Assembly: GCF_003925875.1 (NCBI RefSeq)
Contig: NZ_AP019309.1
Coordinates: forward strand, 1,612,001-1,676,000
Reading direction: 5' to 3'
Origin: Intestinibaculum porci
Lineage (GTDB): Bacteria; Bacillota_I; Bacilli_A; Erysipelotrichales; Coprobacillaceae
DNA: 64,000 nucleotides
Position 1 is the first letter of the stretch. Each line of letters begins with the position of its first letter. A program made the translations under genes and the position numbers. The notes under the pieces are model-generated. The model made no database searches. It was not told where the DNA came from and saw only the letters and a program-made list of their open reading frames with translations. Shown one piece after another: positions 4,598-33,059 of the stretch.

Positions 4598-6162
4598 GGG
4601 TCTGTACTTTTTCCTATGGAGTAGGTTGTACACAATTAATTCCAAAATATTGAAATAAAAAGAGGTCTACCGTATGATAGTGACTGTATCTTGGCGGATA
4701 TAAGTAACTAACAAGGAGACCTCAAATGGATTATACACAATTAGCTATTAACACTCAATCTAAAAATACAATCATTGATGATGGATATCTGAAGATTCCT
4801 AACACATTAACTGGGTTTATTAATACTGACACTGAAATTGAAGATGATCCTAAGAAAGCCGATCACAAGATCATTGTCTATAAGGGCATTCAGACTGTTT
4901 CGGATGAGGATAGAATTTGTGAGTGCTGTGGTGCTCACATGTACAAGAACATGATCTGCGCTCCTACAAGAATCAAGCACTTCAGCTACGGCCCAACAAG
5001 CACGGTTGTGGAAGTCAGCCTTAATCAGATGCAGTGTACAAATCCTGAATGTAATGCTACAAAGATGCAGGGTGTTCCATTCAAGGCAAAGCACCATCGC
5101 ATTACTAAGGCTCTTGAAGAATTCATTGAAAAGCTCCTCGGCAGAGCCTCATTCACTCTTAAGAGCATCTCAGAGCTTACAGGAGTTGGTAAGAATATTG
5201 TTAAGGCCATTGACCTTAGAAGACTAAAGAGACTCTATACCGTTGATGGAAAAACTCTTAGAAAGCCGCAAAAGTTCTGCAAATACCTTGGAATTGATGA
5301 ATTCAAGCTTCATAACGGCTACAAGTATGCCACTCACATCATTGATATGGAAACAGGAAATGTTCTCTGAATCGCTAGAGGAAAGTCTAAGCAGGTTGTC
5401 TATGACTTCATTGACTATGTCGGTGAGGAATGGATGGATCATGTTGAGGCCATCGGCTGTGACATGAACAGCGACTTTGAGGAAGCGTTTGAGGAAAGAT
5501 GTACTCATATACAGCCTGTTTTTGACTACTTTCATATTGTAAAGAACATGAATGAAAAGCTGATCAATGAAATCAGAAAGGATGAGCAGGCACGTCTTAT
5601 CGCTGAAGGAAATATGGAAGCTGCTAAGCATCTTAAGAAGTCTAAGCACGTTTTATGCTCAAAGAAGGCAACGCGTGACAGGAAGGATGAGGCTGCTCAG
5701 AAAGGCATTGTGAAGCAGAAGAAGTCAGATCTGTTTAACCTTCCAGAAATCAAGGCTATCGGTGGGTGGAACGATAAGTTTGATCTTCTTATTAAAGAAA
5801 ATGAGCTGCTGTTCAAAGCTGATCTTATCAAAGAAAAGATAACAGCAGCCTATCAGGAAGATCATGAATGGAAAATGGCTAAACAGATTATTGAGATCAT
5901 TGATCTATGCAATGAGACAAAGAATGAACATTTCATTTGGTTTGCTAATCTTCTTTCCAATCATTTTGAAGGTATCATAGCTCATGCAACAATCAAAATC
6001 ACAAGTTCTAAAATTGAAGGAATTAACAACCGCATTAAGACAATACGTCGAATGGGTTATGGCTATCCTGATGATGAATATTTCTTCTTGAAAATCATTG
6101 ATATGAGTCGAAGAAATCCGCTATAGGGAAATTAGCTATTCCATAGGAAAAGTGATTGAGCC
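4598..6162 (+). mobile_element. ISL3-type insertion sequence, copy 1 (inactivated)
   Basis: The element is 1,565 bp. The left end begins GGGTCTGTACTTTTTCCTAT; the right end, read inward, begins GGCTCAATCACTTTTCCTAT. The two inverted ends therefore share a TTTTCCTATGGA core. An 8-bp direct repeat CTTTTTTT flanks it (4590-4597 and 6163-6170), as expected for ISL3. It is nearly identical to copy 2 at 58,195-59,759, which has exactly the same length. The one internal gene carries a premature stop, so this copy could move only if copy 2 supplies transposase. Confidence 0.93.
4726..6126 (+). pseudogene. ISL3-family transposase interrupted by an in-frame UGA
   Basis: The reading frame matches the intact 466-residue transposase of copy 2 at 58,231-59,631, except that the tryptophan codon TGG after G-N-V-L has become TGA at 5368-5370. 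This splits it into a 214-residue N-terminal part (zinc-finger-like CxxC pairs and helix-turn-helix) and a C-terminal part that lacks the first catalytic aspartate region. No other frame damage was seen. AGGAGA eight bases before the ATG is the ribosome site. Many genes in the window end in UGA, so readthrough as tryptophan is not expected. Confidence 0.93.
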
Positions 6163-7026: not shown

Positions 7027-7971
7027 ATGAAGAAAAAAGTAACTTTAGACAGTATCGAAAAACGGGGCTTTACCTCTTATGAAGAGGAAGTCGCCTATGT
7101 CCATAAACAAATGCAAGATGGCCTTCTTACGCCGATGAAAAGCAGCGCGACAAATGATCGCTATCCGCCTTTATATTTAAAATATTGGATGACAACAGAA
7201 GAAAAGCAAGATTACAGCGATGAATTAAATCATTTACATTATGCGCTTGATCCCACCTATTATTTATCTCATCAAAAAGAGTATGAAAAAGTGCGAAGTT
7301 TTGTATTAGCTTTACAACAGTATTTATCACGGCCGCACCAAAAGGGGAAAGTCAGTGCGCGCGAAGGGGCTTATGAAATTTTTGGCTATGAAAAAGTTTT
7401 CGATGAAAATAAGCATTTATTAGCACATCTAGGTTTAAGCTTAGAAGATTTAGATTTTTATGAAACAGTCGAACCGATTGCTTATTATACAAATGGATTA
7501 TTTCAAAATGCTTTAATCGTGGAAAACAGCAGCCCTTATTTTACGATACGTGATTTACTTCTTCATCATCAGACCACTTTTTTAGGAGAAAGCTTTGATA
7601 CGATTATTTATGGTGCTGGACACCGCATAGAATCGACGCTAAAAGAGGCAAAGCTCTCTTTTCTGCCATATGATTTAGAAAAGTGCCGTTTTTATTATTG
7701 CGGTGATATTGATTATGAAGGTTTAAGCATTTTTGACAATGCGCGTAAACTTCTGCCAATGAAGCCGTTTGATGCGATGTATCGCCTGATGCTTGATCAT
7801 GCGACAAATCGCAAATTAACCTTGATGAAAGAAAAACAAACACAGCCATCAGATGATGTTTATACATGCTTTGCCCCGGATTTACGCAGCCGGATGCAAG
7901 AGGTGTTAAAAAGCGGTTATTATATTCCACAGGAAATGATCAACAGGAGGGACTTAGAAGATGCATCATGA
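7027..7971 (+). CDS. jetD: Wadjet nuclease subunit JetD (DUF2220/Toprim-like)
   Basis: A 314-residue protein. The C-terminal half carries a Toprim-like metal site: V-E-N at 165-167, Y-G-A-G-H-R at 195-200 and C-G-D-I-D-Y-E-G at 225-232, as in the topoisomerase VI A-like JetD family. In characterised Wadjet systems JetD is the nuclease that cleaves plasmids after the JetABC SMC motor extrudes DNA. The protein is somewhat shorter than type I JetD proteins I know of. It is the first gene of the operon, unlike the usual JetA-B-C-D order. Its TGA stop overlaps the jetA start by 11 nt, so translation is coupled. Identification rests on these motifs and on the neighbouring genes. Confidence 0.85.
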   Translation: MKKKVTLDSIEKRGFTSYEEEVAYVHKQMQDGLLTPMKSSATNDRYPPLYLKYWMTTEEKQDYSDELNHLHYALDPTYYLSHQKEYEKVRSFVLALQQYLSRPHQKGKVSAREGAYEIFGYEKVFDENKHLLAHLGLSLEDLDFYETVEPIAYYTNGLFQNALIVENSSPYFTIRDLLLHHQTTFLGESFDTIIYGAGHRIESTLKEAKLSFLPYDLEKCRFYYCGDIDYEGLSIFDNARKLLPMKPFDAMYRLMLDHATNRKLTLMKEKQTQPSDDVYTCFAPDLRSRMQEVLKSGYYIPQEMINRRDLEDAS

Positions 7972-9403
7972 TGAATTAGAGCAGCGAATCTTAAGTGCGC
8001 TGCCTGCCTATGTCTTTTTTCATAATATCGATACCTATTTAAATACGACTGGCGCTGTGCCAGATCCGATGAAACTTGGCTGTGGCAGCGTAGATGAGGC
8101 TTATGAAATTGTCTTTTCGATCTTCTCGCTGATTGTAAAAAGAGAATTAGAAGAAGTGGATCTGACAATGGCAGAAATTGTCGATACGCTGAAAGACTTT
8201 TCCCTGCAAACAACTGAAACATTAAGCCTTAAAGAAATCGGCATTCGGATCGTTATTGAAATTCTGATGAATGGCTCAGCACCGATGATGCCTTATAATA
8301 GCGTCCGCATAAGTTTTATTACTTCGCAAAGCAGCACGGAAGAAAAGGGAAAAGTCATTTATAAACCGACTCAGCAGGGCTTAAAGTTCTATTTTTCTAC
8401 CCATGAATATGAAGCATACTTAGAAAATCTCAATGGCATGCGTTTTGATTTAATGCTGCTAGAAGAAAAGATCAATGCCGGAGATTACAAAAGTGCGGTG
8501 CGTAATGCGCAGCGGATTTATGCAGCCATTGTTACACAGCATGCGATGATTGAAGATTTTTATGAGAAAATCGCCGCACAGCCTTTAGCGACAAATACCG
8601 ATGAGATGTTTAAAGAGAAACGTGAAGTTGTCGATGCGCTTAATGATGCCAAGCAGCGCTTAGAAAAGATTATGAAACATGCAGATATGAAAATAGAAGG
8701 GCTTCAGCAGCTTAATGATGAGGAGAAAATGAATCAGTATGCGCCTGCCTTAAGAGAAATCAGTGATTTAAGTAATCGCTGTCTAAGTAAAGATGCCCAG
8801 ACGATTGCCCTTTATATGGGCTTAGATGCCTACTGGCAGAAACAGGTTTTAGCGGCGGCCCAGGCCGATCATCCTCAGCGTTTTAGCGTTAGTGAATTGA
8901 CCTCCGCATTACAAAGTGATAGTAATCCTATCAATTTAGAAGATCTCTTAAGCATCTTTATGATTAAGCCTTTACCGAAAACCTTTTCTTTATCACGCTT
9001 AGATGAAACAAAAGAAGAGAAGGTCACAAACGAAGAAGATTACGCGATGAAAAAGATGGAAGAACCAGTGGAAACCCAGCGCTATCGTTATGATGAGATC
9101 GCCAAGATTCTCCTAAGCTGGCTGCGTGATCACTTGGCGATCAAATCACCGCAGAAATTAAGTGAAATGATGCCCTATCCGCATGAGTTAGTTGCGCATA
9201 AAGAAGAAACCGGCGGGTGGGTTACATCCGTATTAATTGATCTGTATCAAAGCTGTAATGGCATGGATCATGACATGACCCCGCTTGATCGATTAGCGCA
9301 AGAAGTAGGATGTCCATCTTTCGTTATTACGGCTATTCAGGGGACATGTGCGACCCTAGATGGAGAATTAGATCATGATTTAATATTTGAGGTGAAACGA
9401 TGA
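7961..9403 (+). CDS. jetA: Wadjet kleisin-like subunit JetA
   Basis: 480 residues, mostly helical, with an N-terminal winged-helix-like region and a charged middle (about 190-260) likely to form coiled coil. JetA is the MukF-like kleisin that links the two SMC heads. The assignment is by position between jetD and the MukE/SMC-like genes and by overall character. It seems closer to the clostridial JetA family than to type I (DUF3375) JetA, but I cannot settle the type by eye. AGGAGG (7944-7949) precedes the ATG. The stop overlaps the jetB start in an ATGA. Confidence 0.78.
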   Translation: MHHDELEQRILSALPAYVFFHNIDTYLNTTGAVPDPMKLGCGSVDEAYEIVFSIFSLIVKRELEEVDLTMAEIVDTLKDFSLQTTETLSLKEIGIRIVIEILMNGSAPMMPYNSVRISFITSQSSTEEKGKVIYKPTQQGLKFYFSTHEYEAYLENLNGMRFDLMLLEEKINAGDYKSAVRNAQRIYAAIVTQHAMIEDFYEKIAAQPLATNTDEMFKEKREVVDALNDAKQRLEKIMKHADMKIEGLQQLNDEEKMNQYAPALREISDLSNRCLSKDAQTIALYMGLDAYWQKQVLAAAQADHPQRFSVSELTSALQSDSNPINLEDLLSIFMIKPLPKTFSLSRLDETKEEKVTNEEDYAMKKMEEPVETQRYRYDEIAKILLSWLRDHLAIKSPQKLSEMMPYPHELVAHKEETGGWVTSVLIDLYQSCNGMDHDMTPLDRLAQEVGCPSFVITAIQGTCATLDGELDHDLIFEVKR

Positions 9404-10098
9404 ATAATAAAGAAATAGCCTATCAGGCTTTACGGCTGCTCACGAAACTTTTAGTAAGCAGAGATAAACAATTGAAGAAAAGCGATGATCCGGCCTTATT
9501 TTCTCTTTATAGGACAGAGTCTTTAGAAATGCGCGAATATGTCAATAGCTTAGCGATGGAAAATGACTGTGATGTCGTTGCTGGCGAAGAAGCCATTTAC
9601 CTGATTCCCCATGAAAAGAACTTTAATTTGGTTTATACCAAAGCAGAGTTACGACAGGAACTCAAGTGCGCCGGGAATGAAGAGCAGTATGCCTTATCGA
9701 TGGTGGCGATCTTAGTGCTTATCACAACGATGTATAGCGGGCAGTCACCAGCGAGCAGCCGGGTGCGTGAAGTCATTAGGCCGTCTTTCTGGGAAAGTGA
9801 AATCACCAAAACACTGACCCAGTTAGGAGAGACCAATCCGCAAATGAAAGCGTTAGGGGAAGCCTGGCAAGCCAAACCGAATGCGGAAAATAATAACGAG
9901 TTTAAACGGACAAAAGAGTATTTACTTAAATGTGTAATGAGCTTTTTAGAAAAAGAATCGTTAGCGATCTATCGTGAAGAGAGTGATACTTTGCAAGTAA
10001 CGGAACGCTTAACGATTTTAGTGGATCGTTATTTGTTAAATGTCAATAACTTAGGACGCTTAGCGTCGATCATGAAAGGAGAGTATGAGGATGCCTAG
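9400..10098 (+). CDS. jetB: Wadjet MukE-like subunit JetB
   Basis: 232 residues, predicted all-helical with winged-helix character, the size and position expected for JetB, the MukE-like partner that binds the kleisin. The segment AILVLITTMYSGQSPASS in the middle is the most hydrophobic stretch and is more likely a buried helix than a membrane span. It starts in the ATGA overlap with jetA and ends inside the start of jetC. Sequence alone would leave it hypothetical; the operon supplies the call. Confidence 0.78.
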   Translation: MNNKEIAYQALRLLTKLLVSRDKQLKKSDDPALFSLYRTESLEMREYVNSLAMENDCDVVAGEEAIYLIPHEKNFNLVYTKAELRQELKCAGNEEQYALSMVAILVLITTMYSGQSPASSRVREVIRPSFWESEITKTLTQLGETNPQMKALGEAWQAKPNAENNNEFKRTKEYLLKCVMSFLEKESLAIYREESDTLQVTERLTILVDRYLLNVNNLGRLASIMKGEYEDA

Positions 10099-13000
10099 AA
10101 TTATTGCCCGACGTTTTGAAAACATTCACTGGGGTGAACGTGCGATCATTGATAATCTGATTGATTACGATCTTTACAATAATATCGAATGTCTCGCTAA
10201 TGGCGGCGGGAAAACGGTACAGATCTTCTTGACGAACTGTCTGTTTACCCATCGTCGAAAACATAAATCTACTGGGGCGGGCTTTTCTTTCAGCTTAGCA
10301 GATTATTTCCAGGAAGGGCCGGTACCGGGCATCGTGATGGTAGAAGTCTTACTAGACCAGTCTCAAAAACGTTTATTAGTGGGAATGTTAGCCCATAAAG
10401 TGAATGGCAGCTTTGATCAGCATAACTTTCTTTATGCTTATAAAGATCCTGAAGATCCGATGGGGATTCGCCATATTCCGTTTATTCGGGAAAAGGATGG
10501 GGAAAATCATATTCTTTCCATGAGCAGCGCATTACGTTTACTTGAAGACCACCATATCCATGTTTATGATATGACCTCCAATAATGATGCCACCCGATAT
10601 TATAAAGATCTGATGTCTTATAAGATTTCTCCTTCCCAATGGGAAGATATTGTCATGAAGATCAATGAAGGCGAAGGGGGAATTTCTAAGTTCTTTAAGG
10701 GGTTAGATGAACCCGCTATTATTCGTAACTGGCTTTTTAAAGTCATTGAACAAAAAATGAATGATCAGGACGTCGGTGAGGCAAGTATCCGTGATTATTT
10801 AGGTGATGCCTTCTATCGTTTATGTGAGAAAAGACGGCTGGTGGATCAGCATTTGAAAACAGAAAAGCAGTCCCAGGCTTTTATTGACACACTGCAAAGC
10901 CAAAGGGAGGCTTTTGCGGCAGAAAAAGCTGCCAGTGATCAAGTGAACCAAAAGGAAAATCAGTTAGAAAGCGAATTAGGGGCTTTATCTTCCGCATTAA
11001 CGAAGCTTCACCAGCAATTACAGGAATTAGAAGTCAAAACCCAGGAAAAAAAGCAGGAGATCACCCATATTCACTGTGAGAAGGAATCACAGGATTATCA
11101 TGATCAGGTGCATGATTTGGATAAACATAAAGAGGAATTAGCGTTATTAAAAGAAAACCTTAATCAAATCAATGATCAATTAGCTGCAGATACTTATGCT
11201 TTTGGTTTACAGGGCTATGCGAAAGCGTATCAGGCTTATTCAAAACAGGAAGCGATTGCGCAGGAATATACAAAGCTGTTAGAAGATTTAGGCAGTAATG
11301 AGCAGCAGCGTCATTTACGAGATCTAGGCTATTCTCTTAAAGTCAAAACGACGGCTTTGATACAAGAAATTGAAGAGACTTTACAAAAAGCCAAAGATCA
11401 GTATTTAGCATTACAAAAAGAAAACAGTCAGTTAGAAGACAAGAGAACATCAATAGACGAACAGATTCAAAAGCGAACAGCATCAACCGCTTCCTTAGCC
11501 TATAAAATTGAAGCTTATAAAAAGCAGGAGGAAAATCTATTAGGAGAGGTTTACGCTTTTAATATGATGGGGGAACATGAAGAGAAATTCTTTGAAAGCC
11601 AAAAAGAAGCTTCGAAAAAAGCGATCAAAGCTTTATCTTTACAGATTGATCAGTTCACGCAAAAAATAGAAGCTCATCAAAATCGATTAGAAACCATCAA
11701 ATCAAACCAGGAGCAATTAAAAATTGAAGAAGGCTTAACAAAAGGACATTTAGCTGATGCAAAAGCGATCTGCGACGATGATCAAAAGATTATGGAAAAC
11801 AGAGAAGCGCATTATCCCGATTTTGATCCTTTAGATGCAGAAGGAATCATCGCTTCTTTAGATGCCCATATCACGAAACGTGAAGAAGATATTGAAGAAA
11901 AGAGAAAAGACTTAGAAGCAAAACAAATTGCTTATGGACAGCTCTCTTCTTCCCTCAATAAAACACTGAGCGACTTTTTCACGCATCATGATATTCGTTT
12001 TATGTCAGGGATGGATTATTTACGCTCACAGGCAGATATTACTGATCTTATTACCCGTAATCCTTTATTAAGCTATGCTTTTGTCATTGATGATCGAGAC
12101 TTCGATACCCTTAAGGCTTTAGATCTGCCAACGGTCTTAGAACCTGCGATCTTTATGAAGCGCAGCGCGATCGGGCAAAGTCATGATGTTTCTCTTAATG
12201 ATGATACAATCATCTATGTCAATCGCGATGCTGCATTGCTCGATGAACAGCAGGTGGCTTTAAAGCGCGCTGCTTTAGAGCAAGCTATTGAAAATATCAA
12301 AGAGGATATCGTCCTTTTTAAAGACGAGATTAAAAGCGCCCAGGGAGTAAAACAGCGTTTATTACAGGAAGGGCTCAATCATCAGGTTTATGAAGAACAT
12401 ATTCATAAAGTTCATGATTTAGAAGATCTGCAGAAAAACATCATCACGCAGCTAAATGATTTATCAAAGCAGGCAGACACATTCAAATTAAAGCTAACAG
12501 ATGAGGAAAAGACGTTAACAAGGGTAAATACACAAAAACAAGAGGCAGAAGCCTTCCACAAAGAGCTGCTCTTATTAGAAAAAGCGTATGCAGATTATCT
12601 GAATGATTATCATCAGTATCTTGATGATTGTCAGTTATTAGAAAATGCAAAGCAGGAAAAAGCGACATTGCAGCAAAAGTCAACAGCTTTACAGGAGACA
12701 TTACAGAAAGTTTCTAATAAACAGATACGTTTAGAAGAACGTTTAAATCAAACCGATATTTCTCCTTATGTATCTTATCAGGAAGGAACCCTGATTGAAG
12801 CGTCTTATGAGCAGCTGCAGACAAGTTTTGAAGAATTAAAAGAAGCCTTAGGCAGTGATGAAAAGTATTATCATCGTATGCTTGATGATGCACATAAACA
12901 GATGGCAGAGCTGCAAAAGACTTTAGCGGAAGTTTTTGATCAATATCGGTTAAACAAAGAAGAAGCCTTAGCTACCCGTTTTGAAGAAACGCGTTATAAA

Positions 13001-14344
13001 GAATTAGAAAACAATGTTTATCTTGACAAGAAACAAATACGCACATTAGAAAATCGAATCAATATTCTTGATGGAAAAGTCTCTGTCAAAGCGCAAAACG
13101 TCGAAACCTTAAAAGCGCGGATTTTCAATCATTACCAGAGAATTCTGCCATTAGAGGAAATTTATGATCAGTTTAATGAACGTTTAGAAAAAGCCAATAC
13201 CCTGTTAGGAAAGTATAAACAGGAAGCTGATGATAAGCATAAGCAGATCAGTACGATGACGTTAGCAGCGGCGTTATTAGAAAAAGAAGGTATTCATGCC
13301 TCAGAAATGGCATTGAGTAAGCAAAGTGATGCTTTACTTGAAATGAATGAAACAGATTTCAAGAAGCATGAGGATGATTTATTGGCAGATTATCATTATC
13401 AGAAAAAGCTGTTTGATATAAAACGTAAGGAAGTATCAAAAGCGCTCAATACAATGTCGGATGAACATTTAGATGTCTTTGCGAAAAATATGATAACCCA
13501 GTTACGACAAAGCCATGAGGAAAGTACGATTGAGCAGGCTTTAGAGAAACTGCACATGTTTATTGAAGTTATGCATAAGAAGTTATCGATCAATCAGAAT
13601 TCTACGAAAGAATATCATCATGACGCGATGACACTGAATGATCGTATCTGTGATTACTTATCTCGCATTCATCAGGGACTCAATGAAATAGACCGGCATA
13701 CGGCAATTGATTTTGGTGATCGGAAACGCAAGCTGATCACTATCGAAACAGCATCCTGGGAAGATAATAAAGCCCTCGTGGCGCATAAGATTGAAAACCT
13801 GTTAGAAGAGAAGTTAAAAGAATCTTTGACTTTTGATACTGATGAAGCTCTTAAACAGTTCAAGATGAAAGTCATTGAACCAACATATTTATATAATGAA
13901 ACCTTAGGTATTGATTCCATCCGGCTGTATGCCTTAAAGATTGATCAGGATCATCAGCGTCGCTTCCGCTGGGATAGTTATCGTTCAGGCGCCGAAGGAA
14001 CTGTCAGCTCAATGGCATTATTAGGTGCTTTATTATCATATTTAGGAACGGATCCATTAACCAGTGCGGCCAAACGGCCATGGTCCGTCCTCATTATGGA
14101 TAATCCATTTGCGGAAATGGTTAATAATAACTTAGTGCGAGCGTTTTTAGAAGCGGCGAAGAGCCTGCATGTCCAGCTTATTCTCTTTACTGGTTCAACG
14201 CAGGAATCTATTATCAAGGAAGCGGATCGGGTGATTATTTCTCGCTTGAATCCTAGCGGCACGATTGCCATTGAAGAAATTCATAAAAAAAGTACGATTG
14301 AAGCAATTGGTTTAAACCAGCAAATGTCTTTATTTGACCTTTAA
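10091..14344 (+). CDS. jetC: Wadjet SMC-like ATPase JetC
   Basis: About 1,417 residues with SMC layout. Counting from the upstream in-frame ATG at 10085, the N-terminal head has the P-loop A-N-G-G-G-K-T at 38-44. Two long coiled-coil arms (about 270-600 and 720-1250) flank a hinge-like globular region around 620-710. The C-terminal head has S-G-A-E-G at 1301-1305 in the ABC-signature position and Walker B V-L-I-M-D at 1335-1339 followed by N-P-F. In Wadjet this protein extrudes plasmid loops with JetA and JetB. The start at 10091 is preferred because AAGGAG (10076-10081) is 9 nt away, against 3 nt for 10085. The Walker B aspartate is followed by asparagine rather than the usual catalytic glutamate; a glutamate lies three residues further on. 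Confidence 0.88.
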   Translation: MPRIIARRFENIHWGERAIIDNLIDYDLYNNIECLANGGGKTVQIFLTNCLFTHRRKHKSTGAGFSFSLADYFQEGPVPGIVMVEVLLDQSQKRLLVGMLAHKVNGSFDQHNFLYAYKDPEDPMGIRHIPFIREKDGENHILSMSSALRLLEDHHIHVYDMTSNNDATRYYKDLMSYKISPSQWEDIVMKINEGEGGISKFFKGLDEPAIIRNWLFKVIEQKMNDQDVGEASIRDYLGDAFYRLCEKRRLVDQHLKTEKQSQAFIDTLQSQREAFAAEKAASDQVNQKENQLESELGALSSALTKLHQQLQELEVKTQEKKQEITHIHCEKESQDYHDQVHDLDKHKEELALLKENLNQINDQLAADTYAFGLQGYAKAYQAYSKQEAIAQEYTKLLEDLGSNEQQRHLRDLGYSLKVKTTALIQEIEETLQKAKDQYLALQKENSQLEDKRTSIDEQIQKRTASTASLAYKIEAYKKQEENLLGEVYAFNMMGEHEEKFFESQKEASKKAIKALSLQIDQFTQKIEAHQNRLETIKSNQEQLKIEEGLTKGHLADAKAICDDDQKIMENREAHYPDFDPLDAEGIIASLDAHITKREEDIEEKRKDLEAKQIAYGQLSSSLNKTLSDFFTHHDIRFMSGMDYLRSQADITDLITRNPLLSYAFVIDDRDFDTLKALDLPTVLEPAIFMKRSAIGQSHDVSLNDDTIIYVNRDAALLDEQQVALKRAALEQAIENIKEDIVLFKDEIKSAQGVKQRLLQEGLNHQVYEEHIHKVHDLEDLQKNIITQLNDLSKQADTFKLKLTDEEKTLTRVNTQKQEAEAFHKELLLLEKAYADYLNDYHQYLDDCQLLENAKQEKATLQQKSTALQETLQKVSNKQIRLEERLNQTDISPYVSYQEGTLIEASYEQLQTSFEELKEALGSDEKYYHRMLDDAHKQMAELQKTLAEVFDQYRLNKEEALATRFEETRYKELENNVYLDKKQIRTLENRINILDGKVSVKAQNVETLKARIFNHYQRILPLEEIYDQFNERLEKANTLLGKYKQEADDKHKQISTMTLAAALLEKEGIHASEMALSKQSDALLEMNETDFKKHEDDLLADYHYQKKLFDIKRKEVSKALNTMSDEHLDVFAKNMITQLRQSHEESTIEQALEKLHMFIEVMHKKLSINQNSTKEYHHDAMTLNDRICDYLSRIHQGLNEIDRHTAIDFGDRKRKLITIETASWEDNKALVAHKIENLLEEKLKESLTFDTDEALKQFKMKVIEPTYLYNETLGIDSIRLYALKIDQDHQRRFRWDSYRSGAEGTVSSMALLGALLSYLGTDPLTSAAKRPWSVLIMDNPFAEMVNNNLVRAFLEAAKSLHVQLILFTGSTQESIIKEADRVIISRLNPSGTIAIEEIHKKSTIEAIGLNQQMSLFDL

Positions 14345-15914: not shown

Positions 15915-16027
15915 GATCTTAAAATTCATAATAATTTTTTTTGAAAAATATTTTAAATATATTGTATGCGATTACAATCAATGCTATAGTGTAAGTGAAT
16001 CAAAAAAGATTAATATATTGGTTATCA

Positions 16028-16285
16028 CCGTTTTCTCTTTTTTCGCGATCATCAAAGTGCAGCGACCATAAAAAAGCAGGAAAACGTATCAAAAACATTA
16101 CGATTCTTACATTGATTCCATTATCTATGAAAACAAAGCTTTAAGTGGTATCAGTATCTTTGCAAAAAAGAATAGTACAGCGCAAAAGCGGAGTAAGATT
16201 GCCCAAAAGAAATACCAGGCTATGAAAGGTATAACGCTTTCTGATAGTCATGGGGAAGGTCTTGAAAAAGTGCTGCGTTTTTAAA
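16028..16285 (+). pseudogene. Fragment of the neighbouring ABC permease gene
   Basis: About 250 bases match, with small changes and indels, the stretch at about 18,090-18,365 inside the 722-residue permease. They encode the same N-S-T-A-Q..., Y-Q-A-M-K-G-I-T-L and G-E-G-L-E-K-V-L-R sequence and then stop at TAA in place of the continuing gene. The start codon and first membrane span are missing and the frame is broken upstream. It is a remnant of a duplication of the export locus, not a gene. Confidence 0.85.
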
Positions 16286-16737: not shown

Positions 16738-16803
16738 TATAATGGAATAAAGGTTAATATAATGAAATAAAGGCATTAAAAAACTCCCGGTAATGCCTTT
16801 TTT
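16735..16803 (+). terminator. Short tandem duplication and intrinsic terminator
   Basis: Two near-identical 19-20 bp units (TAATATAATGGAATAAAGG and its variant) run from 16735 to 16773. The terminator stem AAGGCATTA / TAATGCCTT (16770-16799) with a T-run follows. Confidence 0.8.
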
Positions 16804-16815
16804 AAGGAGAATTTT

Positions 16816-17978
16816 ATGAATACTTATCAATTTATTAAGAAAACATGTTTATGCTTCTTCATTTTGATTGTTGGGGGGGCTGCAGTAGTTCTCAAGTATC
16901 AAACGAAAAAAAGAAAGAGGAAAATAAAAACACGGCAATTGCAAATGTAACGACTGATCAGATTGCACAAAAAGAGTTATCTTATCATTTTGATACCGAT
17001 GCGCAATGCGATCTTGGTGACTATACAGATTATGCTTATACTAAAAATGGTTATTACCACATGAAACTTTTAAATCAAGAAAATGACAACATGACTTATC
17101 AGCTTACATTTACAGATAAAAAATCAGGGAAAACAGTACCTGTTTGTACAAAAAGTAATTGTACCCATACAAGTGCAGATTGTGATGCTAACTTTGAAGA
17201 AGGTTATGACGGAGATCATGCTTCAGCTAATAAATCTTATTATATTGGTTATGGCTACTTTCAGTACTATAAAGGTTCTCTTTACTTACCAGTAAAGAAA
17301 GGTGATTATGTTTATTTGATGAAAGTAGGTGCCGATGGTTCAACGCGTAGTAATGTGATGAAATTATGCCGCTTTTTACAGATCACTAAGAAAAAAGGAG
17401 ATGCTACGGAAACGGCAAGCTTTTATCCAATGTTACAGATTCATCGTGGCTATGTATATTTCACAAACGATGAAACGGGCGGGAAAACAGCTACATTATA
17501 TCGTAAAAAGATGGGAGGAGATCAAATAGAAACAATCAAGCATTTAAAATCACATCAACCAATGATTTATCGCATTCATCCATATGGAAACTATGTCTTT
17601 TATATTGCGGGAACGATGGACTCTAAAGGTAATATGAAGTCTAATCTTTATGCCTACAATACCAAAAATAAGAAAATTTTTCTAGCAGGTAAAAATATTT
17701 CAGGTAACTATACAGTTTATAAAGGATCTATTTACTATACCAATGGTTTTAAAACGATGCGCATTTATCGTCTCTCTCTTGGCAGCTTTCAACCTACTTA
17801 TATAACTAAGACTGCTATGAAAGAAGGGGAAAGTGTTCATCTATATGGCAATGGAAAAAAAGTGGTTGTCCAATTTGTCAATAATGATGGAAACTTGGAT
17901 AAACAAATGATTTTAGAAAATACTAAAAAGGTGGCTACTTACAAAACTCCTAAAATAAAGCCTTATCAAAATTTATAA
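16816..17978 (+). pseudogene. Lipoprotein with CTH-type cysteine motif, frame broken in a G7 tract
   Basis: The ATG at 16816 has an ideal AAGGAG site (16804-16809) and encodes MNTYQFIKKTCLCFFILIVG, a lipoprotein signal sequence. At the G7 tract (16873-16879) the frame shifts away. With one more G (or two fewer) it would read I-V-G-G-C-S-S-S, a lipobox with its acylated cysteine, and continue for about 365 residues to 17978. The body has C-T-K-S-N-C-T-H-T...C-D-A, the cysteine pattern of clostridial cell-surface beta-propeller-like lipoproteins (DUF5050 type). As written the gene is off or truncated; an ATG at 16845 in the body frame lacks a ribosome site and a proper signal. It is probably the surface component of the following ABC exporter. 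Confidence 0.75.
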
Positions 17979-17979
17979 G

Positions 17980-18009
17980 AAAGGAGGATCCAGGGAGGTA
18001 TCTCCCTGG
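17980..18009 (+). other. Ribosome site and hairpin before the permease start
   Basis: AAGGAGGAT (about 17981-17989) is followed by a perfect 8-bp hairpin (CCAGGGAG / CTCCCTGG, loop GTAT, 17990-18009). The ATG at 18020 is 31 nt from the AGGAGG. If the 20-nt hairpin folds, the effective spacing becomes about 10 nt. There is no T-tail, so it is not a terminator. Confidence 0.65.
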
Positions 18010-18019
18010 TTAACTTTCT

Positions 18020-20188
18020 ATGGAACTTCGAAAACATATTGGACATCGGCGCTTTCTCTTATTAGCGGCCTTCATGATCCTTTTATCAGGTGTTCTCTTT
18101 TTTCGTGATAATCGAAATGATGCCACTATAAAAAGACAAACAAAATGGGAAAAGCAAGAAGAAACTTATCAAAAACATTACGCATCTTACATCGCTTCCA
18201 TTATCAATGAAAACAAAGCTTTAAGTGGTATCAGTATCTTTACGAAAAAGAATAGTACTGCGCAAGAAAGGAGTAAGATTGCCCGAAAGAAATATCAAGC
18301 TATGAAAGGAATCACCCTCTCTGATAGTTATGGGGAAGGTCTTGAAAAAGTACTTCGCTTTCAAAGTGTGCATGGTTTATTAATGATTGTTATGATTGTT
18401 TTAACCTTAGGTTTTCTTGATCATGATCATCAGTCTTTAGCTCTTATTGTAGCGAGCACCCCTAAAGGGAGAAGCATTTTAGCAATGAAAAGAATGGGTG
18501 TCCTCTTGATTGTGTCATTAGGTCTTCATATGATTGCTTATACGCTTTTATTAGGGGAGGGCATAGTAATGTTTGGAATGCCCCAATTTAACGTATCAGC
18601 CCAGTCTTTATCATATTTAAAAGATATGACTTTACCAATTTCACTAGGGGCATTTTATCTGCTCTATATAATGGTATCAAGCTTTTGTATGGCTTTACTT
18701 TCATTAGTATTTTGGGACTGCTTAATAGCCTTTCATACAAGATCACTCGGATTAGGATTATTTTTAGGATTATCGATTCTTGAAGTGCTCTTACAAAGTC
18801 ATCTGATTGCCCAAAGCCCGATCGCCTTTTTGAAATACAATAACATTTACTATCTACTGATGCCGATTGAAATTATGCGCTCATTTCTTACTTATACATG
18901 TTTGAAACAGATGGTTAATGGACAACACGTATTTGTGATTGTGATGCTTACAATAGCGGTTTTATTGATCATCTTCACAGTTTTAGATCATCAATATCAT
19001 CGCGTGCTTTCGCAAAGTCATACATACAAATTGAAAAAGTTAATTCAAAAAGTAACGATAAGGGTGCGTTCACGAATGTCCTTACATAAGACATTTTTCC
19101 AGGAATGCTACAAAATTGTGATCTGTGAAAGAGGATTACTCTATATCATTTGTTTTGGTATCTTATTAGTAAGTTTACAGGATACAACACCCTATTTGGC
19201 TAATGATACGATGAATACCTATCAAACGCTTTATGCCAAGTATGGCGGGGCATACGATGGACGGATTATGAAAGAGTACATTATTCCCACGCATAAGAAG
19301 TATCAAAAAAGAAAGCGAAGCTACGAGAAAATTTCTGCTTTGTATGACAAAGGGAAAGTGACTCTTGATCGTTTGAGTGGTGAAGAAACGTTACTCATTG
19401 CGGCAAAACATGAGGAAGATATCGCTTCGACGATCGAAGCACAAATAAAAGATATCCAGAAACTTTCACAAAAAGGCATTAAAGCAAACCTGATTGATCA
19501 AAAAGGATGGACGATTTTACTTTCTAAAGATGGTCATTATCCTGGTGAAGGCTACTACAGTGCTGAAGCGGAAGGGATGATCACCATCGCCTTGATGTGC
19601 TTTCTCTTAAGCAGCCTCTGGTATTACGATCGTAAAAATCGTATGAATTTGATCATTCGAACAACGCCGCAGGGACGTGATTCCCTTTATTACATGCGTC
19701 TAAAAATCATGGCCTTATTGGCGCTTTTAGCGGTGTTATCCTGCGAAGGCATGGACTTTTATGTGCTTGCGAAAACCTATCCTTTAACATCATGGAATGC
19801 CCCTGTACGCAGTTTATTATTCTTAAATGATTTACCAGTCAATATGCCGATTTGGTGTTTCTTAATTATTTTAACGCTTTTAAGAATGTTCTCGCTGTTT
19901 TCGTTATGTATGCTCATGAACTGCCTCTTTATGTTTGCTGGCGGTTTAAAAGGGGCCTTTATAAGTGTTGGTGTCTTAGTTATTCCACAAGTGCTTTCTT
20001 CCCTTGGGTTATCATTTTTTCACTATCTGTCCGCCGTGCAGCTCATCACCATCATGCGAATGGGACAGGAGTTAGGCTTTGCCTTCACAGCGCTGATTTT
20101 ATTAGTTTTATATGGCAGCGCAGCGATCGCCATTTATTTTTCAAAACAATTGTGGAACGGAAAGAAGGGAAAGATTGTATGGAGCTAA
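18020..20188 (+). CDS. ABC-2-like permease with two homologous halves
   Basis: 722 residues. Each half has one membrane span, a charged extracytoplasmic domain of about 80-130 residues, then roughly five spans. The halves match each other: first span A-A-F-M-I-L-L-S-G-V-L-F-F against I-C-F-G-I-L-L-V-S-L-Q, and S-T-P-K-G-R-S (about 150) against T-T-P-Q-G-R-D (about 550) just before a membrane segment. This looks like a fused dimer of an ABC-2 type permease. It overlaps the ATPase gene by 10 nt and should form a complete exporter with it. Substrate unknown; the upstream secreted protein and lipoprotein are candidates for cargo or partner. Start: ATG at 18020, with the hairpin-bridged ribosome site described separately. 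Confidence 0.78.
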   Translation: MELRKHIGHRRFLLLAAFMILLSGVLFFRDNRNDATIKRQTKWEKQEETYQKHYASYIASIINENKALSGISIFTKKNSTAQERSKIARKKYQAMKGITLSDSYGEGLEKVLRFQSVHGLLMIVMIVLTLGFLDHDHQSLALIVASTPKGRSILAMKRMGVLLIVSLGLHMIAYTLLLGEGIVMFGMPQFNVSAQSLSYLKDMTLPISLGAFYLLYIMVSSFCMALLSLVFWDCLIAFHTRSLGLGLFLGLSILEVLLQSHLIAQSPIAFLKYNNIYYLLMPIEIMRSFLTYTCLKQMVNGQHVFVIVMLTIAVLLIIFTVLDHQYHRVLSQSHTYKLKKLIQKVTIRVRSRMSLHKTFFQECYKIVICERGLLYIICFGILLVSLQDTTPYLANDTMNTYQTLYAKYGGAYDGRIMKEYIIPTHKKYQKRKRSYEKISALYDKGKVTLDRLSGEETLLIAAKHEEDIASTIEAQIKDIQKLSQKGIKANLIDQKGWTILLSKDGHYPGEGYYSAEAEGMITIALMCFLLSSLWYYDRKNRMNLIIRTTPQGRDSLYYMRLKIMALLALLAVLSCEGMDFYVLAKTYPLTSWNAPVRSLLFLNDLPVNMPIWCFLIILTLLRMFSLFSLCMLMNCLFMFAGGLKGAFISVGVLVIPQVLSSLGLSFFHYLSAVQLITIMRMGQELGFAFTALILLVLYGSAAIAIYFSKQLWNGKKGKIVWS

Positions 20189-21042
20189 TCATTAAGAATT
20201 TAACGAAAAAATATGGTTCATTTATCGCATTAAATCATGTCAATATGACGTTTACACCTGGTGTTTATGGGATCTTAGGCGCCAATGGCGCCGGCAAGTC
20301 CACGCTTATGAATCTGATTACTGATAATTTAAAAAGAAGCAGCGGGGAGATTCTTTACAATGGTGAGGATATTTTAAAGCAAGGCGCCCGCTATCGTAAA
20401 AAATTAGGCTATATGCCCCAGCAGCAGGGCTTTTATGAAGATTTTACAGCCTTACAGTTTCTTTATTATATCGGTGAGCTCAAAGGTTTAAATCGCGCTA
20501 TTCGTCACGATCAGGCTGAAGAACTGCTTGAACAGGTTCATCTTTATGATGTGCGCCATGAAAAACTGAAATCTTTTTCTGGCGGAATGCGTCAGCGTGT
20601 CTTATTAGCCCAGGCCTTATTAGGGAATCCGCAAATCATTATTTTAGATGAACCATCAGCCGGTCTTGATCCGCGCGAAAGGGTCCATATTCGTAATATG
20701 ATTGCCTCGTTAGGCAGACAAAAGATCGTTTTGATTTCCACGCATATCGTCTCCGATGTCGAATGCATCGCTGATTCCATTATCTTAATGAAGCAAGGGC
20801 AGGTCATTGCCCAGGATACACCTGAAGCACTTATTCATTCCATTACGCATCATGTCGAAGAATTTCCCTGCACAAAGCGTAGCGTTTCTGCTTTGCAGAA
20901 GAAATATCCAGAAGGCATTTTAGTGCAGCGATCAGATGGCTTGCATTACCGAATTGTAACGCAGGAACCGATTACTGGTGGTCTTATGATTCCAGCGGAT
21001 CACTTAAACTTAGAAGATGTTTATATGTATTATGTGAAATGA
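20179..21042 (+). CDS. ABC transporter ATP-binding protein (exporter type)
   Basis: 288 residues. Walker A G-A-N-G-A-G-K-S-T at 34-42, Q-loop in Y-M-P-Q-Q-Q-G-F-Y, signature F-S-G-G-M-R-Q-R, Walker B I-I-I-L-D-E-P-S-A-G-L-D and the switch histidine in S-T-H-I-V-S-D. The pattern resembles ATPases paired with ABC-2 permeases of antibiotic or peptide export. The start ATG at 20179 lies 10 nt inside the permease gene, so the two are translationally coupled. The long open frame upstream (from 19,852) is an overlap artefact of the permease gene. A terminator begins within the stop codon. Confidence 0.92.
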   Translation: MELIIKNLTKKYGSFIALNHVNMTFTPGVYGILGANGAGKSTLMNLITDNLKRSSGEILYNGEDILKQGARYRKKLGYMPQQQGFYEDFTALQFLYYIGELKGLNRAIRHDQAEELLEQVHLYDVRHEKLKSFSGGMRQRVLLAQALLGNPQIIILDEPSAGLDPRERVHIRNMIASLGRQKIVLISTHIVSDVECIADSIILMKQGQVIAQDTPEALIHSITHHVEEFPCTKRSVSALQKKYPEGILVQRSDGLHYRIVTQEPITGGLMIPADHLNLEDVYMYYVK

Positions 21043-25094: not shown

Positions 25095-25211
25095 AAATAG
25101 AAAATACTTTATATTGCAAGTTGGATAATTCACTTTATAATGAATACAAATGAGAACTTTATAAATATGTTTTCATGAATGATTTTGGGAAATGGAATGA
25201 GGGAAAAGAAG

Positions 25212-25771
25212 ATGTTAAAAAAGAAGAAAAGAATTGACGAATTCGATATTGCGAAGGGGATCGCTATTATTGCGATGATGATTGGACATTTAGGCATGAA
25301 GCATATCAATATGATTGTCTATGCCTTTCATATGCCATTATTTTTTATTCTAAGCGGTTATTTTTTATCGGCAAAAGATTCTTTTATACATTTTATAAAG
25401 AAGAAATTTATTGGACTGATCATACCTTATTATATATGTGCAGGGATGATCTGCCTCACCTCTGTCATAAGTAATCGTTTTGTAAACATGTTACATACGA
25501 CTTTTCAAACGCACGATATCACCACTTGGATCACGGCAATGTTTATGGGGCCGGCTCGCAGCACTTATTATCACATGGGCTTATTCCCATTGGCGGCATC
25601 TGGTTTCTCCAGGCTCTTTTTATCGCCTCAATACTGGTGAAATTACTGGATATCTTTATTGATCGTCACTATGAATATGTCAAAGCGATGATTGTCCTAT
25701 TATTAGCAGTCACATCCTACATAAGTGCAAAATACATCTGGTTGCCACTTAATATTCAGACAGGATTTTAG
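25212..25771 (+). pseudogene. Acyltransferase-3 family gene, frameshifted and 3'-truncated
   Basis: The N-terminal part reads R-I-D-E-F-D-I-A-K-G-I-A-I-I-A-M-M-I-G-H, the hallmark of membrane acyltransferase family 3 (OatA/YiaH-like), followed by A-F-H-M-P-L-F-F-I-L-S-G-Y-F. The frame moves by one base around 25,560-25,590: the new frame gives G-G-I-W-F-L-Q-A-L-F-I, which is the continuation expected for the family. The gene ends at 25771, where relic transposon sequence begins, having lost roughly the C-terminal 40%. It marks the left edge of the accessory island. Confidence 0.85.
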
Positions 25772-26932: not shown

Positions 26933-26962
26933 AAAAAAGTCTCCAGCTTTGTGCTAGAGACT
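26933..26962 (-). terminator. Terminator of the tns operon
   Basis: Minus-strand stem AGTCTCTAGC / GCTGGAGACT with a 5-nt loop and six Ts. The first base of the stem is the last base of the tnsC stop codon. Confidence 0.88.
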
Positions 26963-28659
26963 TAATTGGTATCTTGTGTGTTGTTGTCTAAAAACTGCAT
27001 CATAACGTCCTTTGACATGCGATCTGGTTTCTTTTTTGCTCTGATCTTTTTTCCTGATAAAACTTTCATTACATCTCTGGTGAACTGCTTTTCATCAGTA
27101 ACTGAATAATTGCCAGTTTCATAGAGCTCTTTAGATACATCGATAATACTGTTCACTTTGAAATCATCTGATACGGCGGTAATCTTAGCGACTGCTGATT
27201 TGATCAGCATATCCTTATCAGATGGCTTATTTTTGATTTTCGATATCGTACGTTCATGTTCGATGTCAGACTGCTTGCTGATGTCTTTTTTCATCAGCTT
27301 ACTGGCTTCTTCAATCTCAGCTAAACGTGTCCGGTCATAGTCTGAGGCACCAATATTATCAATCGTTTTCATCAGATTCGGATAATACTTTTTTGCAACT
27401 TTTCTAACGAAGGATTCATTAATCTTTGTCTTGCGATCAGTGATCAGTGCTTCATGCTGAAGTGCTGAATATAATCCAATAATCAGATCGATGATTCCAT
27501 GTGTACAGTCCATGAATGCCTTGAGCAAATCTGGCGTTAAATCTTCTTTAGTGATTTTTACGTCAGTCCATTGATAATCGATGAGTGCATTGAGTATGCG
27601 CATAAATGTCGAATGATTGGAACAGTATGAGTCAGCATAAATAGTTTTACCAAGTCGGCGATTCTGATGGATCTGATCTTCAAAAATCAGACGATAGGCA
27701 ATTTCAGTTCCGATGACACCAATACTGACGCCGGTACTGTTCATGATTGTAGTAATGGCCTGAAAAGATTCTGTTTTAACATTAACCCTTTCATGATTGT
27801 TATTCTTTGAAGTTAAAAACATTTGAATTTCATCAAATATTATTAATCCAATGTTAAAACGTTCAATAATATTAATGACAATATTAAGTTTTTCGCCTAA
27901 GCTGCGCACTTGATCGATTCGCTTCTGAAAAGCCGGATAAGTGTAACCAATAGCAGTATCAACAGCTTTTCCAATATTCGAATAAAAGGCTGACATATTG
28001 CCGTTAGGAGGACACTGGACAATCAGATAAAGAATCTGATAAATTTCGCCTCCCCCTTTCAATCTATGGATAACCACCTGTTTATAATGCGACATGATAA
28101 TTGACAGTGCTAAGCTTTTTCCAGTCCCGCCATATCCTTCAACATTAAAGGAACCATAACTTTCAAGATGAAGAGGATCCTTATACATCTTCACAGGTGA
28201 ATTATTATTGAAATCAGCATTGGTTGTTTTGTTGATACTTGATCCGTCGAAAGAAACTCTTCTGTTTCGATATCCTTTAATGAGGGCCTGGTAAATAGCC
28301 CTGTCAAGATTTTCATGAAACGGCAGCATAATACGAAACTGCTCTCTAAGCATAACAATATTCTCAAGCTTCTCAGAAAGTGACATACCCCCTAATTCTT
28401 CCTCATTATATGAATAGACAGGCTGGGTAAAGTCTGTTTCAAGATCTTTTAATGATCGCGGAAGCGGAATGGATTCGATATAAGGATTGTGGCTGTCACT
28501 ATTTGATGCGACGTATTCAGCATAAACCACCTGCTCATCTTTTGAGTACTGTTCATAAAGATTATGGCCTTCTGTGAGGGTTTTGTAGTGAATATCAAAC
28601 ATAGAATTCTCACAGATAGATCGTGTAAAGAAATTCACTCCGTTTAATCCTTTTTCCAT
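26962..28659 (-). CDS. tnsC: TnsC-like AAA+ transposition regulator
   Basis: 565 residues. AAA+ ATPase with Walker A G-Y-G-G-T-G-K-S near 175-182 and Walker B L-I-I-F-D-E-I-Q near 268-275. A long N-terminal region precedes the ATPase core and a charged C-terminal tail (S-K-Q-S-D-I-E-H-E-R onwards) follows it. In Tn7 systems TnsC links the target selector (TnsD/TniQ) to the TnsAB transposase and gives target immunity. The preferred start is the ATG at 28659, 9 nt after AGGAGG; in-frame ATGs at 28668 and 28677 lie within or upstream of that site. The gene begins at the tnsB stop and is last in the operon. Its 3' two-thirds are repeated almost exactly at 41,375-42,574. Confidence 0.9.
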   Translation of the reverse strand: MEKGLNGVNFFTRSICENSMFDIHYKTLTEGHNLYEQYSKDEQVVYAEYVASNSDSHNPYIESIPLPRSLKDLETDFTQPVYSYNEEELGGMSLSEKLENIVMLREQFRIMLPFHENLDRAIYQALIKGYRNRRVSFDGSSINKTTNADFNNNSPVKMYKDPLHLESYGSFNVEGYGGTGKSLALSIIMSHYKQVVIHRLKGGGEIYQILYLIVQCPPNGNMSAFYSNIGKAVDTAIGYTYPAFQKRIDQVRSLGEKLNIVINIIERFNIGLIIFDEIQMFLTSKNNNHERVNVKTESFQAITTIMNSTGVSIGVIGTEIAYRLIFEDQIHQNRRLGKTIYADSYCSNHSTFMRILNALIDYQWTDVKITKEDLTPDLLKAFMDCTHGIIDLIIGLYSALQHEALITDRKTKINESFVRKVAKKYYPNLMKTIDNIGASDYDRTRLAEIEEASKLMKKDISKQSDIEHERTISKIKNKPSDKDMLIKSAVAKITAVSDDFKVNSIIDVSKELYETGNYSVTDEKQFTRDVMKVLSGKKIRAKKKPDRMSKDVMMQFLDNNTQDTN

Positions 28660-28676
28660 TGGCTGCATCCTCCTCA

Positions 28677-30425
28677 TTAATCAAGAATAAAATCTTTTTC
28701 TTCATCACTCATATGGTCGGAAATTTCGTCCCATGATGGCCATGATCTGTCTTTCTGATTTCTTTCAATCATTGCTTTTTCTTTTGTCTTCATCTCGCTG
28801 TTTAATGCCTTATGCATTGCGTTTTCTGATTTAATTAGGTTCTTTACTGCAATTCTGTTTTCGCTCATATTTTGAATATTGGCATAGGTATCGCGTTTAT
28901 TTTCAGTCAGAACGCTTTTGACGAGAATTCTGTTTGCTACATCAATAGCAATATTCTGCTCTCTTGCATGGGCTTCTAATTCTTTTTGAATTTTTCTGTA
29001 CTTCATATAAATTTCGTATGGCATATCTTTAAAGTCCATATTATAAGTCTTTTTAGGATTGAGAGTCATGAGCCTGAGCTTATTATCTTTAATGTAGTAG
29101 AGATGAGAAACATCACGGCGATCCATACGAACCTCCATCTTATGATGACTTCCCTTCCAGCGAAGATCATCAATGTCAGTATCATTATACTGATACCATA
29201 ATTCTTCCCATCTGACACCATTTTTGCTGATGTAGCAGGTTGTAGGCGTCATAAGCGAATACATGAACGCATTTTTATTACCGATAGGATGGACGGTATG
29301 GTATTTGCTATTATAGTAGTTCCAAAGATTGATTGGTGAACATAAAATCTTTTGACTGAGCATTTCTTTTGAACGCTTGAAATTTTCGATTTCCGACATA
29401 TTATAGGCAAGCACATTTGAGATGCAGATTTTCATAATATCATAGTAATCAAGAACTGCTTTTTCATGATGATTGGAATCATGAAGTTTGCTAATGAGTC
29501 CATATTCTGCAAGGATATCTTTCCAAATGGCACCAAAGAGACTGAACTGCTTTTCAACTGTTCCCTTGCGGCTGGCGGTTCTTGCTGGGGTTGGAATAAG
29601 ATTTATGCTGTTCTCCTGACAAATGCGAGCAAACTCTTTTGACATATATTCAGAGCCACGATCGACTCTAATCGCATTAACACGATTTCCAGAAGGCCAG
29701 GCTTCTGGCTTAATTTCAACGCCATATTTTTTACAGAATTCCACATGGTCTTCAGCTAAATTCATCAGGCAATGAGTAGCACCAACAACTGAGTTGTTAT
29801 CAAGGGAAACAGAAATAGCCATTACAAGTTTGCTCTGAACGTCGATAATGACATGCAGAATAAATCTGCCAATAGCTAACGATGGATCAAAATAGGAAAC
29901 TGCTGACAAATCCATTTCCTGCTCATCCATTTCAACAACTGTAGTTGGTCCATGAATATCAAACAGAAAATCAGAATCATTTAAGGAATTATTTCCTTCT
30001 GATACGTCTTTTCGCTTTGCCCTTATTAATGATTTTTCTTCTTCCGTAATAACTTTGTTAAGTCGATATCGAAACTGATTTATGGAAGGAATTTCTGATG
30101 CTGGCAAAAGCGCCGGCATCGTTGAGCCATCTTCTTCACGAATATATTCAGTATAATATTTTCCCAGCATATCCTTATAGCATGATGATACTGATGAGAA
30201 AATGTTAGACTTATATTTCTTTATATAGCTATCTATGTTTTTTATATCATTGTCAGTCAGATTTACCAAAAGTTGAGTATTTTGGTTTTCTCCCAACTTT
30301 GCTGTGATAGACTCTATGTGAAAGATCGTGTGATAAGATTCGTTGGTCATAAAGCGCATTTGTATCAAAACCAGACTGCAGAAAGCGCCTATATATTCTC
30401 CAAATTTTGGTCTTGCCGATACCAT
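28677..30425 (-). CDS. tnsB: TnsB-like DDE transposase, catalytic part (out of frame with its N-terminal part)
   Basis: This open frame holds the RNase H-fold catalytic core: D167 in V-V-E-M-D-E-Q, D255 in A-I-R-V-D-R-G-S-E-Y and E291 in K-G-T-V-E-K-Q, followed by the beta-barrel and C-terminal TnsC-interacting region. TnsB binds the end repeats and joins 3' ends to target DNA. The frame is open up to an ATG at 30425, but that ATG has no ribosome site and lies inside the other tnsB frame. Homology-like sequence appears only from about L-T-D-N-D-I (around 30,255) onward. The N-terminal DNA-binding part is in the overlapping gene at 30,253-30,843, one base out of register, so the full protein needs a frameshift or the two parts must work in trans. 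Confidence 0.82.
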   Translation of the reverse strand: MVSARPKFGEYIGAFCSLVLIQMRFMTNESYHTIFHIESITAKLGENQNTQLLVNLTDNDIKNIDSYIKKYKSNIFSSVSSCYKDMLGKYYTEYIREEDGSTMPALLPASEIPSINQFRYRLNKVITEEEKSLIRAKRKDVSEGNNSLNDSDFLFDIHGPTTVVEMDEQEMDLSAVSYFDPSLAIGRFILHVIIDVQSKLVMAISVSLDNNSVVGATHCLMNLAEDHVEFCKKYGVEIKPEAWPSGNRVNAIRVDRGSEYMSKEFARICQENSINLIPTPARTASRKGTVEKQFSLFGAIWKDILAEYGLISKLHDSNHHEKAVLDYYDIMKICISNVLAYNMSEIENFKRSKEMLSQKILCSPINLWNYYNSKYHTVHPIGNKNAFMYSLMTPTTCYISKNGVRWEELWYQYNDTDIDDLRWKGSHHKMEVRMDRRDVSHLYYIKDNKLRLMTLNPKKTYNMDFKDMPYEIYMKYRKIQKELEAHAREQNIAIDVANRILVKSVLTENKRDTYANIQNMSENRIAVKNLIKSENAMHKALNSEMKTKEKAMIERNQKDRSWPSWDEISDHMSDEEKDFILD

Positions 30426-30843
30426 ACTTAGTCATCTGCGCTTGTGTAAAATGAGTGCCTGCCTGGGTTTTCAGCTTAATATAATCATTTTTAAAATATT
30501 TCTGCATCTCAATTGCAATTTTCATATTTAAATCATGTGCCTCACGGATTTTAAAATCGATTTTATCTTCATCAACGATCAGATCTTCATGCTGCAGAAT
30601 TTGAATTTCAGAACGGTCCAAAAGCTTATTTAAATAGTCTTTGCTGATTGCTTTAATATTAATGGAATTAATGTTCATCTGAACCAGCTGTACTTCATCA
30701 TCAATCAAAGAAACAATTCTGTATGATACACCAGTGTTGGAGAATGCAATTACATCGCCGATCTTGAAATCAGGCACTGTTTTATTATCTTCGTTTTCCG
30801 TAAGCCCTTTAGAGAGCAGTTTATCAATCATTGAGTTGGCCAT
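30253..30843 (-). CDS. tnsB: TnsB-like transposase, N-terminal DNA-binding part
   Basis: 196 residues. Residues about 100-185 hold a helix-turn-helix region (F-T-Q-A-Q-M-T-K-Y-G-I-G-K-T-K-I-W-R-I-Y) and end in the linker G-R-K-P-K-Y, a usual feature just before the catalytic domain of TnsB/TniA proteins. The frame then stops at TGA (30253-30255), followed by C. Joined to the next frame the product would be about 730 residues, near the length of Tn7 TnsB. The ATG overlaps the tnsA stop (TAATG). I cannot tell from one sequence whether this is a decay mutation, a sequencing error or programmed recoding. Confidence 0.8.
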   Translation of the reverse strand: MANSMIDKLLSKGLTENEDNKTVPDFKIGDVIAFSNTGVSYRIVSLIDDEVQLVQMNINSINIKAISKDYLNKLLDRSEIQILQHEDLIVDEDKIDFKIREAHDLNMKIAIEMQKYFKNDYIKLKTQAGTHFTQAQMTKYGIGKTKIWRIYRRFLQSGFDTNALYDQRILSHDLSHRVYHSKVGRKPKYSTFGKSD

Positions 30844-32620: not shown

Positions 32621-32682
32621 ACTTTTCACCTCACCTTCATTTAATCTGATATTCTAAAAAAGTGAAGATTTTAAGTGATTAT

Positions 32683-33019: not shown

Positions 33020-33059
33020 CGAATTGAGCTGTCCTTGTGGCTGCTTTTTGTTATTCCAT

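Follow-up and report, generated by a model that had tools for sequence, protein, structure and literature searches.

A frameshift at a run of seven G residues in a lipoprotein gene of Intestinibaculum porci is confirmed in the assembled sequence, and its most likely explanation, still a tentative one, is a recent slip in a G run that is mutable by accident. As far as a single genome can tell, this is an event of an ordinary kind. Positions given without a label such as L022 or G000 refer to the window, i.e., the whole 64,000-nucleotide stretch of DNA that was analysed.

Reading frames at the G7 run

The run occupies exactly positions 16873–16879, with T on its 5' side and C on its 3' side, where a sequence-only reading of the window had placed it. 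The signal is well initiated, as that reading had also claimed, by AAGGAG at 16804–16809 with a spacing of 6 nt to ATG 16816. Translation from this ATG as sequenced yields MNTYQFIKKTCLCFFILIVGGAAVVLKYQTKKRKRKIKTRQLQM, a 44-aa product that reads MNTYQFIKKTCLCFFILIV-GG and then AAVVLKYQTKKRKRKIKTRQLQM up to the TAA stop at 16948–16950. For the protein body (CSSSQVSNEKKK... to 17978) it is the -1 frame that is open, extending in the 5' direction as far as a stop at 16836–16838. Signal and lipobox are therefore both encoded, but split across two frames that part at the run, and the frame as sequenced lacks the combination of charged n-region, hydrophobic core and lipobox cysteine by which a bacterial lipoprotein is recognized. 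The frames computed for run lengths of 4–9 agree with the proposed restoring lengths, with G5 giving 386 residues and G8 giving 387 residues in which signal and body are joined; joining occurs only when the run length modulo 3 equals 2. A one-base change of this tract in coding sequence shifts the frame, as in poly-G contingency genes. The joined frame at length 5 passes the strict Gram-positive lipoprotein pattern, while that at length 8 fails it. The presence of a G run is accounted for by the glycine pair preceding the lipobox cysteine, because such a pair written with GGG itself makes one.

The account of the frames given by the sequence-only reading was sound for the tract and the two frames but overlooked an ATG at 16845 that lies in the body frame and opens a 377-aa ORF, the one that gene callers would report. 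The features of the locus, all on the plus strand, are as follows.

16022–16285 (+): degraded fragment of a second permease copy; blastn aligns 216 bp with the intact permease (N-terminal part) at 88% DNA identity, tblastn match with two TAA
16381–16737 (+): small secreted protein, 118 aa from ATG 16381; its Kandleria counterpart, encoded upstream of the lipoprotein there, is 48% identical across 96 aa
16734–16763 (+): promoter-like site TTAATA-18-TATAAT; scan not above chance for the whole region
16769–16803 (+): terminator-like stem AAGGCATTA/TAATGCCTT with a T6 tail, abutting the Shine-Dalgarno sequence; -9.6 kcal/mol, z -1.45
16804–16809 (+): Shine-Dalgarno sequence AAGGAG, 6 nt 5' of ATG 16816
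16816–16950 (+): signal-frame ORF MNTYQFIKKTCLCFFILIVGGAAVV..., 44 aa as sequenced, TAA 16948–16950
16873–16879 (+): G7 run, coding for the glycines preceding the lipobox cysteine; the frames part here
16845–17978 (+): ORF in the body frame, starting at internal ATG 16845 and coding for 377 aa, lipobox cysteine codon at 16881–16883; orthologous to the lipoprotein in Kandleria (46% across 335 aa)
17978–18018 (+): stable hairpin across the permease ribosome-binding region, reaching back to the lipoprotein stop codon; -21.9 kcal/mol, z -3.1
18020–20188 (+): ABC-type permease, 722 aa, intact at full length; 35% identity to Kandleria
20179–21042 (+): ABC transporter ATPase; 64% identity to the Kandleria ortholog

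The degraded second copy of the permease start upstream indicates that the locus has been rearranged before. The terminator-like stem may act as an attenuator, and since it stands with its T6 tail directly before the Shine-Dalgarno sequence, expression may need read-through or a promoter within that stretch; the promoter scan returned no promoter signal above chance for the region. The Rfam search gave a single match, below threshold and attributable to chance, and Pfam and NCBIfam returned no family for the lipoprotein or the permease.

The Kandleria ortholog and the gene cluster

Among 43 family genomes, the sole close relative of the gene was found in Kandleria vitulina DSM 20405 (cluster NZ_JNKN01000004.1), where secreted protein, lipoprotein, ABC permease and ABC ATPase follow in the same order, with identities of 48, 46, 35 and 64%. 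The Kandleria ortholog starts with MKKFFSLLLLSTLLVSGCNANN and carries a standard lipoprotein signal (...LLVSGC) in a single frame without a G tract, matching both lipoprotein patterns. It shares with the present protein the motif CTKxNCxHxxxxCDAN, but differs in that its signal is in frame and the permease start overlaps the lipoprotein stop. As this relative is an intact lipoprotein in the same gene order, the gene in the window is read as a disrupted lipoprotein gene. The searched collections hold one genome per species: in a class-wide search of 395 genomes just three further, more distant genomes carry the gene, with weaker relatives in the class showing the motif form LCxKxNCxHxxxxC. The gene is missing from the second genome of the genus. 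A scan of genome contigs recovered Kandleria alone, and a pattern scan of viral contigs with the tract flanks gave no match.

The small cluster is of the exporter type, and we infer that the lipoprotein serves as an extracellular, lipid-anchored partner of the permease and ATPase encoded downstream. The disrupted lipoprotein is probably a beta-propeller, judging from a predicted body structure that is all-beta (mean pLDDT 58), with propellers first among the solved matches at TM about 0.3. The top Foldseek match (E 9e-8) is EUBREC_1955, a 7-bladed beta-propeller-like protein (PDB 3s25) that likewise consists of all-beta repeats; at this pLDDT and a TM-score of 0.28–0.33 the comparison indicates the fold class only and is no proof of kinship.

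Integrity of the body and age of the lesion

The claim that everything downstream of the run is intact was borne out, as the body is open over 16845–17978 and its coding statistics are ordinary (53rd percentile among 201 ORFs). A random substitution in the body would create a stop in about 4.7% of cases; since none is present, neutral decay can have reached at most about 0.058 substitutions per site (5% point). This bound makes the lesion recent at the species scale, is silent on reversibility and far exceeds the time that a reversible switch would need.

Rarity of G runs and reliability of their lengths

The whole genome (3.21 Mb in a single contig, 38% G+C) contains four G/C runs of at least 7, where a first-order Markov model with dinucleotide frequencies predicts about 49, a depletion of about 12-fold. 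Poly(G) tracts are generally under-represented in prokaryotic genes (Orsi et al., PMC2831843), and the same holds here. The run at 16873–16879 is the only one of at least 7 in a protein gene genome-wide, the remaining three comprising two outside the listed ORFs and one inside a 16S copy. The absence of a second such run from the protein genes means that there is no poly-G contingency repertoire.

The run in the 16S gene offers a view of how far such lengths can be trusted. At the site CAGC-Gn-ATGG, six of the seven copies have G6 and one has G7 (G000:C1:765580-765586, L015). The seven rRNA operons, aligned over about 4.85 kb, retain copy-specific substitutions at some 25 variable sites, and the G6/G7 difference is the only indel inside the rRNA genes, so that long G runs either slip in this organism or have been miscounted in its assembly. 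A coding-frame model was applied to a sample of 1.12 Mb in 54 stretches (685 modelled genes, 839 kb coding), in which nearly all of the 127 frame switches are ordinary gene overlaps. About four are unexplained singletons, and three more come from a single IS-like element, whose frame breaks at an A9 run in three copies (GTCGTAAAAAAAAAGGG; L022 near 16868, L064 near 15619 and L079 near 13593). This break resembles those of elements in which slippage at A runs is programmed. One of the four singletons is a methionine-synthase-like gene (L027 near 9361), which has a frame break at a G run and is intact elsewhere. In a survey of frame transitions, singletons were regarded as likely indels or sequencing errors (PMC3711429).

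An error of the consensus or assembly in the G run, with the gene intact in the strain that was sequenced, is the alternative that survives best, although it is unlikely. A long G run is a classic site of homopolymer errors. Both other cases at hand could be of this kind: the only other G7 inside a gene, in one 16S copy, is one base off its six sister copies, and the methionine-synthase-like gene is likewise broken at a G run. On the other hand, the assembly is otherwise clean, and the scarcity of frameshifts elsewhere indicates a low general indel error. General assembly error as the main cause is ruled out by the rRNA operons and the coding-frame model, but an error specific to G runs may be compatible with such a background.

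Elsewhere in the window, at 4726–6126, lies an ISL3 copy, one of four copies of an IS transposase of which the other three are intact. It was considered as a further indel case and rejected, as it has a single stop of the TGG-to-TGA type instead. An acyltransferase gene (Acyl_transf_3) at 25179–25771 is apparently frameshifted and then cut off near the remains of a Tn7-like element. This element (26962–43384) carries genes for TnsA, an rve-type transposase and a TniB-like ATPase, includes a second, truncated copy of the TniB-like ATPase gene at 41375–42574, and adjoins a type I restriction-modification system. A Wadjet-type anti-plasmid defence operon (JetD-A-B-C, type 3 models) lies at 7027–14344.

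Proposed explanation: a recent slip in a G run prone to mutation by accident

In the preferred, still tentative, explanation, the two glycine codons preceding the lipobox cysteine would form a mutation-prone G run by accident, and a recent slipped-strand indel in this run would have thrown the body out of the signal frame. Several lines of evidence argue for it. Signal, body, secreted protein, permease and ATPase are intact, with an ortholog that is intact and has no G tract; the body scores as ordinary coding sequence, and frameshifts elsewhere in the sampled 1.12 Mb are few; there is only one protein-gene G/C run of at least 7, and so no repertoire of poly-G switches; and the G7 versus G6 difference in 16S, the sole rRNA indel, is consistent with slippage at G runs. 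As sequenced, the stop after 44 codons leaves about 1 kb untranslated before the permease. ATG 16816 would then yield a 44-aa peptide, with the lipoprotein not made or not anchored. The hairpin at 17978–18018 suggests translational coupling of the permease to the lipoprotein gene, and because it encloses the permease start, and the two genes overlap in Kandleria, a coupled loss is plausible, in which permease synthesis may fall as well once ribosomes no longer translate up to its gene. Another slip could revert the frame in principle, but selection for reversion, or its frequency, forms no part of the proposal.

A comparable situation is the C7 of meningococcal siaD, regarded in a review of phase variation as a mutation-prone tract that is present by accident (PMC11868660). 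This tract and the poly(A) of Listeria inlA (PMC2831843) resemble the present case as slippage-inactivated homopolymers within genes for which an evolved switch is unproven, but the genes, functions and lineages are different, and strain data exist for them whereas the present locus is known from one genome. Against an accidental slip, the run is of the rarest type in the genome and is located at the 5' end of a gene for a surface protein. The possible base-calling errors in 16S and in the methionine-synthase-like gene could also weaken it.

Phase variation and other explanations

The locus had been put forward as a reversible contingency locus, and of this claim the frameshift in a lipoprotein signal and the intact body stand. 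The remainder is not supported, given the lack of a tract in the ortholog and of a poly-G repertoire, G-run lengths that the 16S difference shows to be either slippery or unreliable, and an intact body that bounds only the age of the lesion. A true phase-variable locus, its run retained for reversible slippage that would turn the lipoprotein, and perhaps the exporter as well, on or off, is rather improbable. Phase-variable tracts often lie at the 5' ends of surface-protein genes, and the present run lies within the signal region of such a gene whose body is undamaged. Runs of this length are strongly depleted in the genome, and one is nonetheless retained here.

The same window contains, at 37768–37855, a perfect (TCTG)22 array inside hsdS (37187–39022, minus strand), a type I restriction specificity gene, which makes it probable that slippage-type variation exists in this organism. 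A 324-kb sample contained no other short tandem array of this kind. In its present frame HsdS has 611 aa with three specificity-domain matches, and the gain or loss of one TCTG unit would end it at 421–422 aa, an ordinary two-domain size. The array is a strong candidate for phase-variable specificity and a far stronger contingency candidate than the G7 run.

Several observations weigh against a retained G7 switch. The tract is absent from the Kandleria ortholog and does not recur in other protein genes genome-wide, no G/C run of 8 or more is found in the genome, and seven residues lie at the low end of the lengths of such loci. The joined frame at length 8, moreover, fails the strict pattern noted above. 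By published criteria, phase variation calls for switching through genetic change at one locus, reversal in either direction and at least a minimal switching rate that can be detected in the absence of selection, and a C7 tract alone has not been accepted as evolved phase variation (PMC11868660). The likeness to the poly-G and poly-C phase-variable genes of Neisseria and Campylobacter lies in a 5' coding G run in a surface-protein gene, where a one-base change shifts the frame; the present locus differs in its short tract (7), in being the single such gene in its genome, in having an ortholog without a tract and in being known from one genome.

Programmed recoding, in which either transcriptional slippage or a -1 shift by the ribosome at the G run would yield some full-length lipoprotein, is very improbable. 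If ribosomes shifted by -1 at the second GGG codon, signal would be joined to body, and the run allows re-pairing, but a programmed -1 frameshift site was rejected since there is no stimulatory structure downstream beyond chance (z -0.19 and +0.15) and the site is not conserved in the Kandleria ortholog; in the portion of the literature consulted, moreover, documented bacterial slippage occurs mostly on A/T runs. Translation from ATG 16845 into a cytosolic 377-aa protein, with no disruption that matters, is scarcely credible either, because although this ORF is open and would be annotated from that codon, no Shine-Dalgarno sequence precedes it, its N-terminus (MFMLLHFDCWGGC) lacks a charged n-region and fits neither of the two lipoprotein patterns while the family is one of lipoproteins, and a good start with a signal sits 29 nt upstream.

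Implications

If the run is not a switch, the case illustrates that a G-run frameshift known from one genome cannot tell whether a locus switches, has slipped or was miscounted, and that multi-copy rRNA genes can be used as an internal ruler of G-run accuracy. To our knowledge, no poly-G switches have been described in this Kandleria-related lineage, and a genuine poly-G phase switch on the lipoprotein signal of a lipoprotein-ABC exporter cluster in a Kandleria-related gut or rumen Firmicute, possibly acting on the permease by coupling, is doubtful. If such a switch did prove genuine, annotators would be warned that the called 377-aa ORF begins at the wrong codon, and homopolymer phase variation would be extended to the surface lipoproteins of a Kandleria-related commensal lineage.
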